A stretch of 28,515 bases of DNA from a virus. Location: positions 1 through 28,515 of IMG/VR virus record IMGVR_UViG_3300009157_000040, one strand, 5' to 3'. Of the stretch, positions 1-25,158 are shown piece by piece. The notes beneath the pieces were generated by a model, which did not search any database, was not told the origin of the DNA, and worked only from the letters and a program-made list of their open reading frames with translations. A program made the translations under genes and the position numbers. Every line of letters begins with the position of its first letter. Position 1 is the first letter of the stretch.

Positions 1-24
1 AAGTCTGAACGGTGCCGTTTCCAT
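1..24 (-). CDS. Partial CDS, N-terminal fragment only (8 codons)
   Basis: An ATG at 24-22 overlaps the TAA stop of the radical SAM gene by one base, the same TAATG junction used repeatedly in this operon. The visible residues are METAPFRL, then the window ends. Too little remains to suggest a function. Position suggests it continues the HxD/radical SAM operon and may be translationally coupled to it. Confidence 0.4.
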
Positions 25-1217
25 TATCGTCTCACCTCTGCAATAGCTTGCACTCGAGTATCTGTGTGATCGCCGTGCGAATCCCCATGTGGGGAATCAG
101 CATGAGATATGCTCTGTTTCCCAGCACTTAGGAAAGCTCGTTCCCACTTCTCTCGGTCAGGATGCAATGACGTTGGAGTCTCCCCGAGTTCCAACATCAA
201 GTTCTCGTAGTGCTCAAAGATGGCCATGATGACGCCACAGTGTTCTGTCCTGTTGCGCCAATCACCATCGATTCCAGTGCCTGGACACTCGCCCTTACAC
301 ATGAGGAAGAAGCGGCACCCCTTGCAACCACCATACTTGTAGGGCGTGTTGTAGAGCGCATGTTGTCGCTCGATACCTGTAGTGTCGGACTTTGTCCAAT
401 CGACGCCCATCTTGTTCGTGCGATTGCAATTCGTCAGCTGTCCTTGGCCGTTAATGCCTTGAACTGCAGCGGTAGCTAACGAGTCACAGGCATGCCAAAC
501 ACAGTTCGTAGGCTCTCCAGAGCGCTTTAGGAGAGCCTTGTATTCCCTGAAGTTGTTAAACTTGAGGTGAGTGAACTGCCTCTCGAGGGACATGAGTTGC
601 TTCATACGTTCGATAAGGAGCGGCATATCGACGCGTAGTTTAGAAGCCTTGACCCCGTCAACCTCTAGATAATGCAAATTCACCCACCTCAACCCGAGCT
701 TGTCCAATCTGAGGAACCAGTCGCAGAGCATCTGGAACGATTCCTCGTCGCAGTTGCCCTTCCAAAGTGTGGTAATCAGAGAGACGGCGAGTCCCTCTTG
801 GTGGAGCTTCTCGATAGCATCCGTTGTTCTCTTAGTTGCCACGCGAGTTTCTTCCTGTGTTCCTGCTGCGCGCGCATCAGAGCATCTTTCCGGGCCATCG
901 CAAGAGATGCCGATATGCGTTCGATATCTCTTAAACAAATCAATGTGCGCCTCCGTAATGAGTGTAGCGTTAGTCTGGATACCAGAGCTACCGTCACGCT
1001 CAAAGCTGTACTTCAGTATCTGCTCGACGCGACTGAACGGAGCTAGAAGTGGTTCACCTCCGTGCAAAGAGAATGACCCATGCTTGTCCAGCTCGGCGCG
1101 CACCTTCTCCCAGTCCCATGGGACGTTGACGTTCTTCGCGTCACGCATGGGATTCTCGTAGCAATAGGTGCAACCAATGTTACATGCTACGCCGACTGGA
1201 TTGACCTCTACGCTCAT
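24..1217 (-). CDS. Radical SAM/SPASM enzyme with C-terminal HxD motifs
   Basis: 397 residues. The CX3CX2C cluster ligand of radical SAM enzymes is at C12, C16 and C19, followed by GGEP at 53-56, QTNATL at 81-86 and SCDGP at 105-109, as in anSME-like peptide and protein maturases. A SPASM domain follows: C239, C244, C264, the signature CX2CX5CX3C at C298/C301/C307/C311, and C327, which should bind auxiliary iron-sulfur clusters. The ATG at 1217 is chosen because it forms an ATGA overlap with the preceding gene and lies just ahead of the CX3CX2C motif; the open frame extends 60 residues further, but that extension overlaps the 85-residue gene and is Arg-rich shadow. The C-terminus (372-386) carries HAD, HGD, HGD and HTD, matching the repeat protein two genes upstream. 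By family it reductively cleaves SAM to start radical chemistry on a peptide or protein; the HxD protein as substrate is inference. Confidence 0.93.
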   Translation of the reverse strand: MSVEVNPVGVACNIGCTYCYENPMRDAKNVNVPWDWEKVRAELDKHGSFSLHGGEPLLAPFSRVEQILKYSFERDGSSGIQTNATLITEAHIDLFKRYRTHIGISCDGPERCSDARAAGTQEETRVATKRTTDAIEKLHQEGLAVSLITTLWKGNCDEESFQMLCDWFLRLDKLGLRWVNLHYLEVDGVKASKLRVDMPLLIERMKQLMSLERQFTHLKFNNFREYKALLKRSGEPTNCVWHACDSLATAAVQGINGQGQLTNCNRTNKMGVDWTKSDTTGIERQHALYNTPYKYGGCKGCRFFLMCKGECPGTGIDGDWRNRTEHCGVIMAIFEHYENLMLELGETPTSLHPDREKWERAFLSAGKQSISHADSPHGDSHGDHTDTRVQAIAEVRR

Positions 1218-1471
1218 GCTGTCAACCGGACGTTCGCGGTGCCGCCGTTGACTCGCAGGAATCCCGCCGCCACGTCGACGCCGGATTCCGAGAATGCCGC
1301 TCCGGTAGCAACGACGCTGTTCTTCGCGCCGGTCATGTCGAAGTTGTTGCTGATGTCGATAGAAGTTGCTGTTCCTGGAGTTACGAACAGTCGGCACTTC
1401 CGACTCGGCAGCGCGCGAACGACGTTATCCGCGATTGCGTGAGTGATTCCAATGCTGAGTGATGCAGGCAT
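1214..1471 (-). CDS. Small hypothetical protein between the HxD protein and radical SAM enzyme
   Basis: 85 residues, rich in Ala, Val, Thr, Ser and Gly with alternating hydrophobic residues, suggesting a small beta-rich fold. It has a single Cys (C27), no signal peptide and no membrane segment. It starts four bases after the HxD gene's stop, with GGAG a few bases upstream inside the end of that gene, and its stop overlaps the radical SAM start as ATGA. The three genes are therefore very likely co-translated. It could be a small virion decoration or fibre-tip protein, or an accessory to the modification. I do not recognise the family. It replaces the Arg-rich reading of this DNA in the radical SAM frame. 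Confidence 0.75.
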   Translation of the reverse strand: MPASLSIGITHAIADNVVRALPSRKCRLFVTPGTATSIDISNNFDMTGAKNSVVATGAAFSESGVDVAAGFLRVNGGTANVRLTA

Positions 1472-1474
1472 GTC

Positions 1475-2416
1475 CTACTCCACGAATTCTGGTTGAACGA
1501 TAGATGCTATGTCACCGTGGTCGTTGTGCCCTGTGTCAACATGGTCCACGTCGATGTGAGCCACGTCGTTGAATGGTGTATCACCATGACCATCCTTGTG
1601 ATCATTGTGACTTACGTCACTGTGTGCCACGTCCTTGTGAGCCGTGTCATCATGGTCGTTATCAGTATGATCAGAATGCGCTGTGTCTTGATGTGCCACA
1701 TCCTGATGCGCTACGTCACCGTGTGAATCCCCGTGCGCAGTGTCATTGTGAATGTCCTGATGTGGGAAGTCAGTATGGATAGGCGCGTAGTCGTTATGAT
1801 ACCGACCATCATAGTGGTCTGAGTATTGCGATACTTGATCACCGTGAGCATTGTCTCCATGCCCATCGAGGTGCGAAGTGTTCTGGTCGTTATGTGTATC
1901 AACGTGCGTAACGTCTGTATGACTATCCTTGTGCGCTGTATCGTTATGGTCGTTGTCCTGATGGTCAACGTGAGTAACGTCTTGATGAGCAACGTCCGTA
2001 TGAGTGTTATCAGTATGGTCCTGATGTGATGAGTCTGAGTGCGCTACGTCTGTATGAACTAAGTCACCGTGTCCGGTATCGCTGTGAGTCGCATCCGTGT
2101 GGTCAACGTGAGCCACATCCGTATGACCCTGTCGATGCCCTTTGTCAGATGCAAGCCAAGCGATTCGCTTCTGATTATCAACCCAAACACTACCAGCAAT
2201 ACCAGTCGTGGTCTTGATGAAAGTATTCTCGATGCGCCGCTCCTGACCACTTGAATCGATATAATGAAGATAGTCTCCTTCAATCCACAATGACCCAGGA
2301 ATGGCACTCGGCACATCTGTGACAAATGAACCAATATACCTCCACTCGCTACCGTCATCCGGAACGAAGTGGAGATAATCGCCTTCTATCCAAAGGCTAC
2401 CTGGGAGCTTAGCCAT
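1475..2416 (-). CDS. His-x-Asp repeat protein, probably fibre-associated
   Basis: 313 residues in two parts. Residues 1-92 contain three related modules, PGSLWIEGDYLH at 5-16 and 40-51 and a degenerate GSVWVDNQK near 75-83, each followed by a short beta-like stretch. Residues 98-302 hold about 42 HxD motifs, mostly in the pentad HxDxx with occasional direct HxDHxD pairs; the middle residue varies (T, V, S, G, Q, N, K, L, Y, I, D). There is no Cys anywhere, so Cys-based thioether links within it are excluded. His uses both CAC and CAT and Asp both GAC and GAT, pointing to selection on the protein rather than recent DNA expansion. It sits directly after fibre-like genes and before a radical SAM/SPASM enzyme. 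Metal binding, a pentad beta-helix, or modification at His or Asp are all possible; none is shown. Confidence 0.9.
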   Translation of the reverse strand: MAKLPGSLWIEGDYLHFVPDDGSEWRYIGSFVTDVPSAIPGSLWIEGDYLHYIDSSGQERRIENTFIKTTTGIAGSVWVDNQKRIAWLASDKGHRQGHTDVAHVDHTDATHSDTGHGDLVHTDVAHSDSSHQDHTDNTHTDVAHQDVTHVDHQDNDHNDTAHKDSHTDVTHVDTHNDQNTSHLDGHGDNAHGDQVSQYSDHYDGRYHNDYAPIHTDFPHQDIHNDTAHGDSHGDVAHQDVAHQDTAHSDHTDNDHDDTAHKDVAHSDVSHNDHKDGHGDTPFNDVAHIDVDHVDTGHNDHGDIASIVQPEFVE

Positions 2417-11298: not shown

Positions 11299-12543
11299 TT
11301 ACTTCCTCGTCGTGACCTTCCCAGCGAGGATATCTTCGTCCGAGGTCTTCGACCAGTCGATGGTCCGGGGATTGATCCTCCCCATCCCACGCTGGCCAAC
11401 CGCTCCTCGACCGCCGCTCGGAATGTCACGCTTCTTCTTGTTGTTGGTTCCCGCGACCTTTTGGCCGAGGGCCTCCGCCACCATGCGATTTCGGATGCCG
11501 GGAAGGAGCTGCTTTGCACGCGAGAGGTGCGCGTTGAGAATCGCCTCTTTGTGCTCCTTCGTAAACCCGCCGACGGTTGCACGCCTCCACAGCTGGCGCA
11601 GTGTCTGGTTGAGTTGCTGATCCTCCCCCAACCGTTCGTCGAGCTCGGCCAACGACTCTTTCACGATGGCCTTACGCGAGAAGCCGTTCAGCTTGCCATC
11701 CGGGTCAGCGATGCCCCGGTCAGCAATCCTCTCCAAACGAGTGTAAGACTCGACGGCAAGTTCCTGATTGAAGCTGCCGTATCTCTCGTTGAAGTGCCGA
11801 CTCCGTTCCTCCCTGAGCTGGACCTCCGCAGGATGAGGTCCCGTTGATTGTGTCCTGGGCTCAGGTATCTTTGCTTCGCCAAACACATGCTTCGCGATGT
11901 GTCCAGCGGCATACATCAGATTCTTGTCGTTCAGACGCTTGCCATCGTTGTAGGTCAAGCGAATGAGGTCCTCCAGCACAGGCATCGTGGCCCGCACGTA
12001 GAGTTCCTTGCTCATCCTCTGCAATGTTGGTAGGAAGTTATCTACCAACATGGGAACGGACTGAGGCGAATTGGCCGCCAGCTCACGCAGCACCAGCGAC
12101 GGGTCACCCTGAACGAGGCTTGCTTCGATGATGTCGAAGTCGTCCGCCTTCTTCGATGCAGTGACGGCTTCCTCAACCGACGCGAAGGTTTCCGAGAACT
12201 TCTGTTCCCTGAAGAAGATGTCCTTCAGTCCCGGCACCTTCTTGAAGATTTCCGGGTCTGCCTTCTTCAGTTCCTGATACGTGGGCCGGCCTTCGACGGC
12301 GGGTTCGACTTTCTCTTTACCCTTATCGTCACCCGCCGCGCCTTGTTCAGGTTCGTCGTCGCCCTCTTCGTCGCCTTCTTCATCATCGTCGCCTTCGTCG
12401 TCGTCCTCATCTCCCTCATCGTCGACTTCACCATCATCGCCGGTATCGGGAGTTTCGGGCGTTTCGGAGTCACCGGTGCCCTGATCACCGGAATTGGCAG
12501 GGTCTCCGACATCACTCAGGATGTCCATATCTTCGTCGGGCAT
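11299..12543 (-). CDS. Scaffolding-like protein with very acidic N-terminus
   Basis: 414 residues. Residues about 25-80 are an extreme Asp/Glu/Gly tract, including DDEGDEDDDEGDDDEEGD. The rest is helical and charged (TFASVEEAVTASKKADDFDI, FLPTLQRMSKELYVRATM), as in scaffolds that co-assemble with capsid proteins and are expelled from the head. It lies between portal and capsid genes, the standard place for a scaffold. The Arg/Lys-rich C-terminus could be the capsid-binding end; this is inference from known scaffolds. A DNA-mimicking role for the acidic tract is possible but not supported by anything specific. Confidence 0.82.
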   Translation of the reverse strand: MPDEDMDILSDVGDPANSGDQGTGDSETPETPDTGDDGEVDDEGDEDDDEGDDDEEGDEEGDDEPEQGAAGDDKGKEKVEPAVEGRPTYQELKKADPEIFKKVPGLKDIFFREQKFSETFASVEEAVTASKKADDFDIIEASLVQGDPSLVLRELAANSPQSVPMLVDNFLPTLQRMSKELYVRATMPVLEDLIRLTYNDGKRLNDKNLMYAAGHIAKHVFGEAKIPEPRTQSTGPHPAEVQLREERSRHFNERYGSFNQELAVESYTRLERIADRGIADPDGKLNGFSRKAIVKESLAELDERLGEDQQLNQTLRQLWRRATVGGFTKEHKEAILNAHLSRAKQLLPGIRNRMVAEALGQKVAGTNNKKKRDIPSGGRGAVGQRGMGRINPRTIDWSKTSDEDILAGKVTTRK

Positions 12544-19091: not shown

Positions 19092-19376
19092 TCATCGAAC
19101 ACGACGGATTTCGATTGCTCGTGGCCCTTTCGGCGCCTCCAGGCAGAGGAACTCGACGCGGTCGCCGATTTCCAGGTCTGAGAACTCGACTCCCTGACTC
19201 TTTTGCAGAGCCGTGTAGTGGAAGAAGTAGTCCTGTCCATCGTTGCCAGCGATGAAGCCAAAACCCTCTTTGAGCTTGCGAACGACGCCCGTCTCGTGCG
19301 GTGCGCTGTCCCGCTGTGATTCGGTGCGCCGCGCAGCATCCGACCCTGACATCCTTGCTTCTTCTCCGTTACGCAT
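19092..19376 (-). CDS. Cold-shock domain protein
   Basis: 94 residues. An unusual Arg/Ser/Glu-rich extension (1-28) precedes a cold-shock domain with GVVRKLKEGFGFIAG (RNP1 around 38-42) and YFFHYTAL (RNP2 around 50-57), then VEFSDLEIGDRVEFLC and RAIEIRRVR. Such proteins bind single-stranded RNA or DNA and can act as RNA chaperones or antiterminators. It is the second gene of the late operon, about 75 bases upstream of the Tad2-like gene. The intervening stretch holds no confident gene. The Pro and Gly loops of the domain are intact. Confidence 0.9.
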   Translation of the reverse strand: MRNGEEARMSGSDAARRTESQRDSAPHETGVVRKLKEGFGFIAGNDGQDYFFHYTALQKSQGVEFSDLEIGDRVEFLCLEAPKGPRAIEIRRVR

Positions 19377-19388
19377 CCTTCGACTCCT

Positions 19389-20102
19389 TTACGTTCCCGT
19401 TCGTTCTTGCGGTTCGACTGCGGTTACTTCTGCTTCAGAGACTGCTCCCTCCAGATACTTCTGCGGGACACGTTCCTCTCCCACTGCGACCGTCTCGTAG
19501 TCAGATTCTTTCTTGACCTCGGGCCGATACATGTGGAAGTGGACGGTCTGATCGGCTGACATCTCCTTCGGGAGCATCTTCTCAGAAATGACAGCCAACT
19601 GTGCACCAACGGTTGCGAGCTCTCGGGCTTTTGCGATGCCCTTGATTTTGTCCTCGTCAAGACATTCAAGCACGGTGTTCAGACGCTTGAAAGCAAGGTC
19701 GCGAATCTTGGTCCGCTGACCCTCGATAATGCTGACGAGATTGTTGTTTGGTCGGTCGATGCTGGAGTGCGACTGAGTTCCGTGGTCGGTCATCAGCCTG
19801 ACATGGTCGTCGTTGACTCCGAACAGATTCCCTGCGTTCTTGTGTGAGGTCAGCTGGCCAACGATGACCGCATCTGCTGCCTCACGTTCAGTCAGGTGCC
19901 TCTGCCGAGGCTTGGCTGCTCGAAGTGCGCGTTCAACATGGTGCATGACCTCGGGGTCCAGCTCGATGGGATGGCTCGGTGCCTGGGGTTCGATGGGTGA
20001 CGGAGAATCGTCCCCATGAGGCTTGGAGTCTCGGTCAATGCGGTTCAGAATGTTGCTATGGGACCCGATACGAATCGAGGCCTCTTCTTCCGAAATCCAC
20101 AT
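19389..20102 (-). CDS. Putative small terminase or DNA-binding protein
   Basis: 237 residues. The segment VGQLTSHKNAGNLFGVNDDHV (about 79-99) resembles a helix-turn-helix, and KIRDLAFKRLNTVLECLDED with AKARELATVGAQLAV (about 130-170) resembles the oligomerisation core of small terminase subunits. The C-terminus is charged and flexible. It is the first gene of the late operon, directly downstream of a consensus promoter (20147-20175), and a GGGACCC motif (20057-20072) lies within its first codons. As small terminase it would select and bind phage DNA for TerL. A transcription regulator is an alternative, so I leave the gene symbol empty. Confidence 0.6.
   Translation of the reverse strand: MWISEEEASIRIGSHSNILNRIDRDSKPHGDDSPSPIEPQAPSHPIELDPEVMHHVERALRAAKPRQRHLTEREAADAVIVGQLTSHKNAGNLFGVNDDHVRLMTDHGTQSHSSIDRPNNNLVSIIEGQRTKIRDLAFKRLNTVLECLDEDKIKGIAKARELATVGAQLAVISEKMLPKEMSADQTVHFHMYRPEVKKESDYETVAVGEERVPQKYLEGAVSEAEVTAVEPQERTGT
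20057..20072. repeat. GGGACCC motif copy 1
   Basis: TATGGGACCCGATACG lies inside the first codons of the putative small terminase gene. Two other copies with the same ATGGGACCCG core occur at 20256-20271 and 20338-20353. The core is a near-perfect palindrome, so it may be an operator; the copy in the coding region may act as a roadblock or secondary site. Confidence 0.6.
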
Positions 20103-20625: not shown

Positions 20626-20979
20626 ATGAAGCAAATCAGCGTGACGCTCGACATCCCCGCCGGTGAAGGCAAGCCGGACTACAAGCACACCTACACGAAG
20701 GACAAGGCCGAGACGACGGCCGACGTGCAGGCCATCAGCAAGACCTGCGCTGATGCCGAGAAGAAGGAAACGCCCGGCGACTATCTGGTCAAGGCCTTCA
20801 ATTACGGCCACGACCTCCTGTTGCGCGCAGCCGAGCGCTCGAAGGGCTCGAAGCTGGTCCAGGGTCCGGACAAGGAAATCGCGAAGGCCGTCGCGATGCT
20901 TGTCGCCAACGGATTCGGGGAGGCCCAGGCTCGCGAGATGATCATCGCACAGCGCAAACTGACCGACAAGCCGGTCTAG
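20626..20979 (+). CDS. Hypothetical early protein
   Basis: 117 residues, soluble and mixed. The N-terminus (MKQISVTLDIPAGEGKPDY) looks beta-rich and the rest helical (DYLVKAFNYGHDLLLRAAER, KEIAKAVAMLVANGFGEAQA). One Cys, no membrane segment. It is the first plus-strand gene after the early promoter, with AAAGGA upstream, so it is probably expressed immediately after infection. The high-GC third positions support coding. Early location suggests host takeover or regulation, but I recognise no family. Confidence 0.8.
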   Translation: MKQISVTLDIPAGEGKPDYKHTYTKDKAETTADVQAISKTCADAEKKETPGDYLVKAFNYGHDLLLRAAERSKGSKLVQGPDKEIAKAVAMLVANGFGEAQAREMIIAQRKLTDKPV

Positions 20980-21300: not shown

Positions 21301-21434
21301 CGACAGTCCTCGGCTTCGTCGGAACGATGGCTCTGGTCTTCACACTAGGCCCGATGCTGCCGGACCTGACACTGCCTCCCATCCTGATATTTTTCGCCTT
21401 CGCCTACATGGCGCTTCAAGAGAAAACCGAATAA
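21297..21434 (+). CDS. Small two-segment membrane protein
   Basis: 45 residues from the ATG at 21297, whose ATGA overlaps the previous stop. Two hydrophobic segments are visible, VLGFVGTMALVFTLGPML (about 4-21) and ILIFFAFAYMAL (about 29-40), with a short charged tail (QEKTE). It could be a holin-like or inner-membrane host-effector protein; its location in the early operon argues against a classical holin. A longer open frame starting upstream overlaps the 73-residue gene in the wrong frame and is rejected. Confidence 0.7.
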   Translation: MTTVLGFVGTMALVFTLGPMLPDLTLPPILIFFAFAYMALQEKTE

Positions 21435-21442
21435 ACCTCCCA

Positions 21443-21470
21443 GGCCCCCAGAACATCGGGGGCCTTTTTT
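21443..21470 (+). terminator. Rho-independent terminator
   Basis: GGCCCCC (21443-21449) and GGGGGCC (21458-21464) form a perfect 7-bp stem with an 8-base loop, followed by six Ts (21465-21470). It ends the first early operon, nine bases after its last gene. Confidence 0.93.
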
Positions 21471-21489
21471 CGTCCAGCTTCGCTGGCGA

Positions 21490-21518
21490 GGTTTATGAAT
21501 CATCGTGGTTTATGAATC
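21490..21518. repeat. 12-bp direct repeat pair
   Basis: GGTTTATGAATC occurs at 21490-21501 and 21507-21518, 17 bases apart. It lies between the terminator and a TGTTCA-type palindrome, in the region leading into the candidate origin. Function unknown; a protein-binding site is likely. Confidence 0.6.
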
Positions 21519-21530
21519 CTTGCAGTCTAA

Positions 21531-21547
21531 TGTTCAGCCCGTGAACA
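21531..21547. repeat. TGTTCA-GCCCG-TGAACA palindrome
   Basis: A perfect 6-bp inverted repeat with a five-base centre, one of three perfect copies (others at 23076 and 24208). It lies in the non-coding stretch upstream of the iterons. Confidence 0.75.
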
Positions 21548-21622
21548 ATATCAGATTCGATATCTGTTGGTCCCTCAGTCTACCCGCCGCGCCTGGCTCA
21601 GTGCCGCGCTGACACTAGGCCG

Positions 21623-21722
21623 TGAACATTTTGTGCGGCCCTGTGATCAATTTTCCCATCCCGCGTCGGCCTCCCGCCCGATCCCGCGCTCGAATTGATC
21701 AGAAGGCCGCACAATTTGTTCA
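21623..21722. repeat. Large inverted repeat, 30-bp arms
   Basis: The arm at 21623-21652 matches the reverse complement of 21693-21722 at 26 of 30 positions, with a 40-base GC-rich loop. The arms begin and end with TGAACA/TGTTCA half-sites. It lies just upstream of the left iteron array. It could extrude as a cruciform, act as an RNA structure, or form part of the origin. Confidence 0.85.
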
Positions 21723-21743
21723 TGCTCTCGACACCCGGAATCT

Positions 21744-21809
21744 CTGTGGTATCACTCTGGTATGTCTATGGTATCACTCTGGCATCACTCTGGTATCTCT
21801 CTGGTATCT
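21744..21809 (+). repeat. Left iteron array, six 11-bp units
   Basis: Six tandem units start exactly every 11 bases (21744, 21755, 21766, 21777, 21788, 21799), consensus CTCTGGTATCT. The 11-bp period is not a multiple of three, so it is not a coding repeat, and it is close to one DNA turn, so bound proteins would sit on one face. Confidence 0.93.
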
Positions 21810-22050
21810 TTTGATCCCGGAAGTCCAATATTATCAATAACTTACAGGGAGGCCCCCCTCTCCCTCACCCTCTAGGCTCGGGCTAAGGGTTGTCCGAACT
21901 TTATCGCGGTTTGGGGGCATGAGGCCCAATTTTTCACATCTCATGGATTTTTCATCTCATGTTCTATCTTATATCATTATATATAATAATATTACCCGGT
22001 AGATACGAAAAACAACATCGATGCCAACCCATGCCTCGGCACCTAAGAAT

Positions 22051-22069
22051 GGAGGGGGAGGGGAGGGGG
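22051..22069 (+). repeat. G-rich tract with G-quadruplex potential
   Basis: Runs of five, four and five Gs plus a leading GG are separated by single As. The mirror C-rich tract at 21853-21870 gives the same on the other strand, matching the inverted symmetry of the iterons. Confidence 0.6.
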
Positions 22070-22111
22070 TCTCGGCTAAGTCCATATGGGTCAATAACTT
22101 ACAGCCGATCG

Positions 22112-22177
22112 AGATACCAGACAGATACCAGGGAGATACCAGAGTCATACCAGACCAATACCAGACAGATACCAGAG
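22112..22177 (+). repeat. Right iteron array, six 11-bp units in reverse orientation
   Basis: ATACCAG begins exactly every 11 bases at 22114, 22125, 22136, 22147, 22158 and 22169; unit consensus AGATACCAGAS is the reverse complement of the left array. Three of six units are identical over AGATACCAG with A/G flank; others differ only in the outer two bases. Confidence 0.93.
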
Positions 22178-22224
22178 CAATCCGGGGCATTTTACCTCGA
22201 AATGCAATTTCACCTCTAAACCGC

Positions 22225-22253
22225 TTGCTAATATGGAAAAACCGTGGTATAAT
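22225..22253 (+). promoter_or_regulatory. Promoter of the second early operon
   Basis: TTGCTA (22225-22230), a 17-base spacer and TATAAT (22248-22253), with TGG before the -10. It lies about 50 bases right of the iterons and 60 bases before the first gene of the operon, so iteron occupancy could influence it. Confidence 0.75.
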
Positions 22254-22314
22254 GGTGGCATTGCGGCGGAGACTAGCCCGACGCAAACCTCGGAGAATGA
22301 AGAAAGGATAGTGA

Positions 22315-22506
22315 GTGACGAGAGGACGTAAGGCAGTTGAAGGAAAACCCAATTATGGACACCGGATGCTGAATGTCAACGACACAGCAGTCTGGGATTG
22401 GGCAATCAAGACAGCAAGAGCACGAGGTCTCAGCGTCAGCAAGTTTGTCGAGCAGTTGATGCGAGAGCAAATCGAGCGCGAGAAGCAAGCCAACACCTGG
22501 GAATAA
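22315..22506 (+). CDS. Possible ribbon-helix-helix DNA-binding protein
   Basis: 63 residues from a GTG with AAAGGA upstream. The pattern MLNVNDTAVWDWAIKTARAR then GLSVSKFVEQLMREQIERE fits a short strand followed by two helices, as in Arc/MetJ-type regulators that bind DNA as dimers. It is first in the operon beside the iterons, so it may be an autoregulator or iteron-binding protein; that is inference. The basic N-terminus (TRGRKAVEGKPN) could add DNA contacts. Confidence 0.65.
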   Translation: MTRGRKAVEGKPNYGHRMLNVNDTAVWDWAIKTARARGLSVSKFVEQLMREQIEREKQANTWE

Positions 22507-24229: not shown

Positions 24230-24240
24230 GAGGTGTGGTA

Positions 24241-25158
24241 ATGGCACAGAGGTTTTGCGAGATTTGTAACGACCCTCTCAGCCTCGATAGCACTGAGACC
24301 ATGTGTGAATCATGTCTCGAAGCCATCGAGGTCGAGGTTGGAATCATGTCGGATGCGATTAGCGCCGAGGAGAAGAAATGCGAGACACCTGCACAAAGTG
24401 TGGAGGCTTCCTCATCGAGCGCAACGCCCGACGAGACAAGCACCACGGACAAGAGCATGTCAGAGAACTCCGATGCTCCCGCTGTAACAAGCGATACGGC
24501 ATCCGAAAGCCTGGACTCTCCGACTCCGAGTTCAGAAGCTTCCCCGAGTCCGACCCCAACCGAGGAACGGGCAAAGAAGACTAATCCTTGCGAGGCCTGC
24601 GGGACTCTACAAGAGACGCTCAAGCCCTTCAAGCACCAGCACGTCAAGGAGCAGATGCTGTTGTGTGACTCGTGTCACGCGATGGAGACTGCACTCGTCA
24701 CGCACGCCGATGACCCAATGCAGGGCAAGGTTGTGCATCCTGACGAGGCAGCACGCGAAGAACTCATGACGATGGACGACACAGACCGTATCCTCTACAA
24801 CGAGGAGGTGATGCTCAGTGTCGAGTCTCCCATCGAGCAGGTCTACGCGCGCATCTCGATGCTCGAAGGTCGGCTCCAGAAGGCCAAGCTGCTCCTCAAG
24901 GCCAGCAAGACCACGCTGTTCATGCGCATCGAGCACATGAAGAAGGACGAACGCGAGGCCGAGTACAAACGGCTGAATGAGCGTGATTCTGTGCGGCGTC
25001 GAAGAACTGCTGCAACCTCGGCACCCGGTGAACCCAAGACCAAGCGGGCATCTGCACCACGCCGCACCAAGGCCGAGAGCTTCCGAGACCTCATGTCAGC
25101 TCAGGGCTTCCCGGCTGCTTGGATTGACGAACAGATCAAGAAGATGGGTCTCGAATAG
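24241..25158 (+). CDS. Zinc-finger protein with Ser/Thr/Pro linker and coiled coil
   Basis: 305 residues from the ATG at 24241 after AGGAGGTG (GTG at 24235 is the alternative). Parts: an N-terminal zinc finger (CEIC, CESC), a Ser/Thr/Pro/Glu linker of about 70 residues (about 50-115), a second zinc site CEAC...CDSC, an acidic middle, a helical segment (QVYARISMLEGRLQKAKLLL) and a basic C-terminus with RTKAESFRDLMSAQGFPAAW. The linker DNA also encodes a separate zinc-ribbon protein in another frame (24378-24584). It is either a scaffold for nucleic acid or a fusion of two zinc proteins; no family recognised. Confidence 0.72.
   Translation: MAQRFCEICNDPLSLDSTETMCESCLEAIEVEVGIMSDAISAEEKKCETPAQSVEASSSSATPDETSTTDKSMSENSDAPAVTSDTASESLDSPTPSSEASPSPTPTEERAKKTNPCEACGTLQETLKPFKHQHVKEQMLLCDSCHAMETALVTHADDPMQGKVVHPDEAAREELMTMDDTDRILYNEEVMLSVESPIEQVYARISMLEGRLQKAKLLLKASKTTLFMRIEHMKKDEREAEYKRLNERDSVRRRRTAATSAPGEPKTKRASAPRRTKAESFRDLMSAQGFPAAWIDEQIKKMGLE
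24378..24584 (+). CDS. Nested zinc-ribbon protein in a different frame
   Basis: 68 residues, ATG 24378 with GAGGAG five bases upstream. CTKCGGFLIERNARRDKHHG then LRCSRCNKRYGIRKPG forms a clear zinc ribbon with paired CxxC motifs, and the rest is Ser/Asp/Pro-rich. It lies wholly inside the Ser/Thr/Pro linker of the 305-residue gene, in another frame. My hand count gives about 69% G/C at third codon positions here against about 55% for the longer frame over the same bases, favouring this as true coding. Both products may be made (overprinting). Confidence 0.65.
   Translation: MRDTCTKCGGFLIERNARRDKHHGQEHVRELRCSRCNKRYGIRKPGLSDSEFRSFPESDPNRGTGKED

Follow-up and report, generated by a model that had tools for sequence, protein, structure and literature searches.

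Gene organization around the noncoding interval

The window, by which we mean the whole stretch of DNA analysed here, is a 28.5-kb virus contig (IMG/VR record IMGVR_UViG_3300009157_000040, positions 1 to 28,515). Minus-strand late genes, the large terminase among them (phrog_979, E = 3.5e-43), fill its left part, and plus-strand early genes, including one for a SNF2-type helicase, fill its right part. Positions 21435-22314, between an ORF ending at 21434 and an ORF starting at 22315, are noncoding and hold the module described below. The module is a divergence point from which late genes run leftward and early genes rightward, the two sets converging on the far side of the genome. In related genomes the early genes encode a UDG-PolA fusion, a PD-(D/E)XK nuclease, an AAA_24/Sak4-like protein and a DUF3987 primase/helicase-like protein, so that module-bearing genomes have a PolA-type polymerase with a UDG domain together with the DUF3987 protein. 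The DNA of the region matched no cultured relative, the portal protein was unmatched among 50,697 phage records, and the SNF2 matches in cultured phages are distant (<30%). A tyrosine integrase (PF00589) was absent from 36 relatives, the relatives showed neither an integrase nor a gene for a plasmid-type lifestyle, and the module-bearing viruses look like lytic phages.

Elsewhere in the window, positions 24-1397 (minus strand) encode a radical SAM protein (Pfam Radical_SAM, E = 3e-13) with a weak likeness, far under the NCBIfam cut-offs, to cyclophane-forming peptide maturases. The gene adjoins one for a 313-aa late protein of regular HxD-type repeats (1475-2416, minus strand), and the radical SAM protein carries similar HGD repeats at its own C-terminus. 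Both families recur in about nine relatives, and it is possible that the phage modifies its own HxD-repeat protein by means of the radical SAM protein. The neighbor of the putative small terminase gene codes for a cold-shock domain protein (19092-19376, minus strand; Pfam CSD, E = 6.6e-15), which is kept in the window's clade. One relative (G004; L080, 14339-15688) has, in its early genes, a ParB N-terminal domain fused to an N6/N4 DNA methyltransferase.

Two mirrored arrays flank an unstable core

The noncoding interval contains the following features.

21744-21809 (plus strand): left iteron array, six 11-bp units, CTGGTATCTCT, consensus CTGGTATCtCT
22112-22177 (minus strand): right iteron array, six 11-bp units, AGAGATACCAG, the reverse complement of the left unit (AGaGATACCAG on the plus strand)
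21820-21844 (plus strand): left 25-bp imperfect dyad, GAAGTCCAATATTATCAATAACTTA, 10 bp inside the left array
22077-22101 (plus strand): right 25-bp imperfect dyad, TAAGTCCATATGGGTCAATAACTTA, 10 bp inside the right array
21853-21872 (plus strand): C-rich tract between the left dyad and the core
22051-22069 (plus strand): G-rich tract between the core and the right dyad
21934-21993 (no strand): AT-rich core, a candidate DNA unwinding element; the window's least stable 60-mer (rank 1 of 475 blocks)
22225-22253 (plus strand): sigma70-like early promoter TTGCTA-N17-TATAAT, reading into the early genes
21623-21722 (no strand): 30-bp inverted repeat, TGATCAATT/AATTGATCA, left of the left array; arms 21623-21652 and 21693-21722, 87% complementary

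The initial annotation of this DNA had described two mirror-image six-unit arrays with an 11-bp period about 300 bp apart, with C-rich and G-rich tracts and an AT-rich core between them, and every one of these elements is present. The steps between units are exactly 11 bp, and the arms, which lie 302 bp apart, are 79-84% complementary over 55-76 nt. The annotation had also listed a 14-bp direct repeat (TCAATAACTTACAG, at 21834-21847 and 22091-22104); the repeat exists and is the conserved part of the 25-bp imperfect dyad. We implemented a purpose-built detector that scores two periodic arrays whose units are reverse complements of each other. The window scores 132.7, compared with a mean of 46.2 (sd 1.8, max 50.7) for 40 block (local) shuffles of the whole window and 45 for phage lambda.

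The architecture is conserved in related phages

Using the SNF2 protein as query, we recruited 79 loci from viral contigs and found paired arrays upstream of the SNF2 gene in most of the loci with long enough DNA. The module is carried by 41 related loci (from uncultivated phages of ~45-50 kb), with 5-6 units per arm in nearly all and an inter-arm distance of about 220-390 bp. The period is 11 bp in most of these loci and 10 bp in one clade, by which helical phase is kept. This list takes in a few weak cases (scores 52-57; the weakest accepted, G005, scores 52), and one further locus could not be evaluated since its contig (G009) ends inside an array. In near-complete contigs the module is the top-scoring place of the genome (52-137), and unrelated places reach at most ~51. 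When each arm was scored with a profile built from the opposite one, units 1-6 gave high values and the flanking positions fell to background; this held in 21 of the better genomes. There is one module site per genome, without partial copies at other promoters, and no run of three units was found elsewhere in the 11 genomes scanned. A larger, more distant phage (L114, a 62-kb contig) also has paired six-unit arrays at 11726-12140 (score 99), so the module extends beyond the 45-50 kb group. Altogether the layout is preserved in about fifty genomes while the repeat sequence varies from virus to virus.

The elements between the arrays are conserved to differing degrees. In 15 of 17 near-complete genomes the least stable 60-mer of the entire contig lies between the dyads, and in the other two this place ranks 10 and 6. 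The 25-bp dyad, TAAGTCCTTTRDDWTCAAYRACTTA-like, is positioned 8-25 bp inside the arrays in most relatives; 30 of the 41 loci have at least one copy between the arms and 16 have two. Dyad density between the arms is ~155 times that outside, an enrichment that is inflated by a profile built partly from these same sites, which does not affect the fixed spacing. C-runs left of the core occur in many relatives, not all, and G-runs right of the core in most; the 30-bp inverted repeat at 21623-21722 is confined to close relatives.

The dyad is also found apart from the arrays. Exact matches to its pattern number 32 in viral contigs, most of them without arrays, and only 2 among 85,000 bacterial genomes. 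In the many array-less viral contigs that carry the dyad (loci L114-L145), it often forms tandem pairs 40-250 bp apart. We considered whether the dyads are tyrosine-recombinase attachment sites and rejected this, as PF00589 is missing from the 36 relatives and was found in only 1 of 25 other dyad-bearing contigs.

Repeat units differ between phages and match within each phage

The initial annotation had suggested a search for the 11-bp unit in related phages; the paired-array architecture is what persists (41 loci), and the unit sequence itself differs. The unit is CTGGTATCTCT in the window, TATTTCACGGA in G031, GTTGACAGAC in G022 and TTCTTCTAGTA in L061, and in each phage the two arms match. 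On the helicase tree the units differ even from one sister phage to the other, and the 10-bp period was acquired a single time. Units that change while the two arms still match point most naturally to a sequence-specific protein co-evolving with its sites. Complementarity between the arms is no better in register (0.667) than out of register (0.646; 21 genomes), which indicates selection on the unit as a site and not on a hairpin.

A small protein gene is linked to the arrays

One gene, which in the window lies left of the left array, belongs to a family that accompanies the arrays.

20626-20979 (plus strand): array-linked small protein gene, 117 aa, beta-hairpin plus five helices; candidate array partner

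The array-linked proteins fall into two related groups, which are joined by profile comparison (P = 2.1e-6, probability 89%) and are predicted to have the same order of elements, a beta-hairpin and then five helices (pLDDT 90.6 and 87.9). One group or the other was found in 41 of 41 array loci, in both orientations and at most 1.6 kb from the left array in 39; in the other two (G034 and G035) it is found 5-7 kb to the right instead. We also ran the test in reverse, recruiting contigs by the linked protein (single-protein queries) and not by the helicase and then scanning them for arrays. All 12 new contigs with enough downstream DNA carry arrays (scores 68-126); one truncated contig scores 62, and five others end too soon for scoring.

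A fold search of the linked protein gave no significant match among solved or viral structures and no recognised DNA-binding fold. Among phages of the window's clade, differences in the protein show no obvious correspondence with the unit variant. Matching residues to units between CTGGTAT and CGGGTAT phages was too weak to name the binder: fully discriminating residues number 0 in the linked protein, 1 in the putative small terminase and 1 in the protein encoded at 24235-25158. We therefore regard the linked protein as a candidate partner of the arrays, not as an identified binder. A ribbon-helix-helix (RHH) protein encoded directly right of the module was also considered as array binder and set aside, having weak Pfam matches and being absent from most close array-bearing relatives. 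This RHH-like 63-aa ORF (22315-22506, plus strand) is common to the window and only one relative (G038); it could have been inserted recently or could act as a local autoregulator.

GC skew and contig ends

The minimum of the cumulative GC skew falls at most 5.6 kb from the module in 16 of 16 genomes. The initial annotation had put forward cumulative skew of the complete genome as a check on an origin; for the window, the minimum lies within the module, at 22043. In finer bins the skew at −2 to −1 kb, where rightward genes lie left of the arrays, follows the coding direction. The skew may therefore be transcriptional, being confounded with divergent transcription, and we do not treat it as decisive proof of an origin. 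The contigs end at places distributed around the genome, and the excess between the module and the helicase is only mild. This spread suggests circular permutation, and hence an internal origin.

A probable bidirectional origin

In our interpretation, to which we assign a probability of about 0.6, the module is an origin of bidirectional replication that belongs to the iteron type and is served by a phage-specific initiator. A bidirectional origin has to load one helicase on each strand, a need that would account for the arrays being doubled and mirrored. Each half would consist of six helically phased sites and a 25-bp dyad, the halves mirrored about the least stable DNA of the genome. A sequence-specific protein encoded by the phage may occupy all six phased sites from the same side of the helix, with the dyad bound by a second factor or by another domain. 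Two such opposed complexes could then strain and open the AT core, each helping to load one helicase, on opposite strands; six sites would suit a hexamer. Two forks would depart in opposite directions, possibly assisted by the nearby early promoter.

We count in favor of an origin the detector scores far above shuffles, the 41 loci, the sharp edges of the arrays, their phase, the core, the dyads, the divergence point, the skew minimum, the contig ends and the replication genes. Counted against it are the lack of an initiator of a known family, a linked protein without a DNA-binding fold or unit tracking, and a skew that is perhaps transcriptional. The initial annotation had raised a bidirectional origin from the symmetry of this interval, and had named the lack of a skew change and of conserved arrays in relatives among the outcomes that would speak against it; neither outcome was observed. 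The 41 conserved loci, the skew minimum at 22043 and the core that is least stable in 15 of 17 genomes strengthen that suggestion on the side of architecture, and origin activity is what we would predict from it.

A more specific version is tentative, and we would put the odds against it: that the module represents a previously undescribed class of bidirectional phage origin, in which two opposed six-site complexes of a new-fold initiator, the array-linked protein, load one replicative helicase each and the private site code is rapidly replaced. If the origin is private in this way, close relatives, satellites and host factors could not use it. If the origin reading is right, the module offers a clean natural system for opposed helicase-loading complexes specified by DNA, with an exactly mirrored 6 + 6 design that has long been kept even as the twelve sites of each phage changed in concert. 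Initiator-site co-evolution would then become directly testable by site swaps between sister phages, origins of uncultivated phages could be located from sequence alone, and the array-linked protein would represent a novel type of DNA-binding or initiator protein.

Other explanations of the module

The serious rivals to an origin are a regulatory loop and a packaging site. In the first, which we consider rather unlikely, the arrays are operators and a phage regulator loops the arms together, controlling the early promoter and the divergent late genes, with the AT core as upstream-element DNA. The module does sit between divergent gene sets and adjoins a small protein gene, and most relatives have a near-consensus rightward sigma70 promoter at most ~150 bp from the right array, near or overlapping it. 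Depending on the relative, the promoter is nevertheless found between the two arrays, overlapping the right one or beyond it, so there is no fixed operator geometry; each genome has the arrays at a single place, and its other promoters lack even partial copies; and an operator needs neither mirror symmetry nor the stability minimum of a whole genome. The initial annotation had offered a looped regulatory complex beside the origin, and the single locus per genome and the variable promoter position weigh against a simple operator.

In the second rival, a pac-type site whose phased repeats are wrapped by a ring of the terminase small subunit while the core is cut, the neighboring genes are suggestive: the large terminase lies 4.9 kb left of the left array, and the putative small terminase (19389-20102; conserved and HTH-containing, by our own reading with no family match) lies 1.6 kb left of it. 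Contig ends all round the genome are consistent with headful packaging. Yet phages of the 10-bp period such as G022 and G014 have arrays although, again by our reading, their putative small terminase lacks the HTH part, and two mirrored arms with a melting core fit an origin better. We did not take the contig ends to indicate a pac site at the arrays, because breaks occur genome-wide with merely a mild excess from the module to the helicase. Packaging is, in our judgment, an unlikely function of the module.

A partition or centromere-like site resembling parC, bound by an RHH protein, is very unlikely. ParR of R1 requires at least two 11-bp repeats and ParR of pB171 binds 10-bp repeats (PMC9426499), and the window has the weak RHH-like ORF just right of the module. 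Against this, most close array-bearing relatives lack that ORF, the arms are inverted and not direct, and the phages look lytic, no integrase or plasmid-type lifestyle gene having been seen. An RNA or single-strand hairpin, to which the 79-84% complementarity of the arms might point, can be rejected almost outright, as the register comparison traces this complementarity to unit identity and not to base pairing, and the module has no match in Rfam.

Comparison with known systems

The hallmark of an iteron origin is a set of phased iterons beside an A+T-rich region (PMC5043065). The module has helically phased tandem repeats, the phase being read from the sequence, and adjacent AT-rich, easily melted DNA. 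The origin of lambda, a phage of ~48 kb, likewise places tandem initiator sites next to AT-rich DNA, with nearby transcription and mainly bidirectional replication (PMC5043065), and Stx phages have six iterons (PMC7466680). Lambda differs in that its four 18-bp iterons form a single array inside gene O (from its annotation), whereas here two mirrored arrays of 10-11 bp units are noncoding, and the O family (PF04492) has no match in the genomes examined. Iteron plasmid origins of the RepA/Rep_3 type share direct repeats in helical phase and an A+T-rich region (PMC5043065). They usually have one array and a Rep_3 initiator, in contrast to the two inverted arrays of half-length units here, and Rep_3 has zero matches in 19 records, with control genomes matching. 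As for a DnaA-dependent, oriC-like origin, no phage-coded homologue of the DnaA C-terminal (DNA-binding) domain was found in the genomes examined, and neither was a homologue of DnaB.

The parC sites of ParMRC systems (R1, pB171) resemble the arrays in their 10-11 bp helically phased repeats, whose sequence varies between systems (PMC9426499). In parC the repeats are direct in both clusters, unlike the inverted arms here, and an RHH adaptor gene is present in the window and one relative and absent from the other relatives checked. The ten repeats of R1 parC reportedly flank a promoter. A ParM search gave no StbA_N match, the control being likewise silent.

The initial annotation knew of no matching phage origin, and our search of the open-access literature likewise found none. 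The origins bound by SV40 T antigen and papillomavirus E1 have mirror-symmetric initiator sites around an AT tract, at which two opposed hexamers are loaded; compared with the module, their sites are far fewer and non-phased, and their initiators are eukaryotic SF3 proteins. The module would work like an iteron origin, but the features tested place it outside the lambda-O, Rep_3 and ParMRC families.
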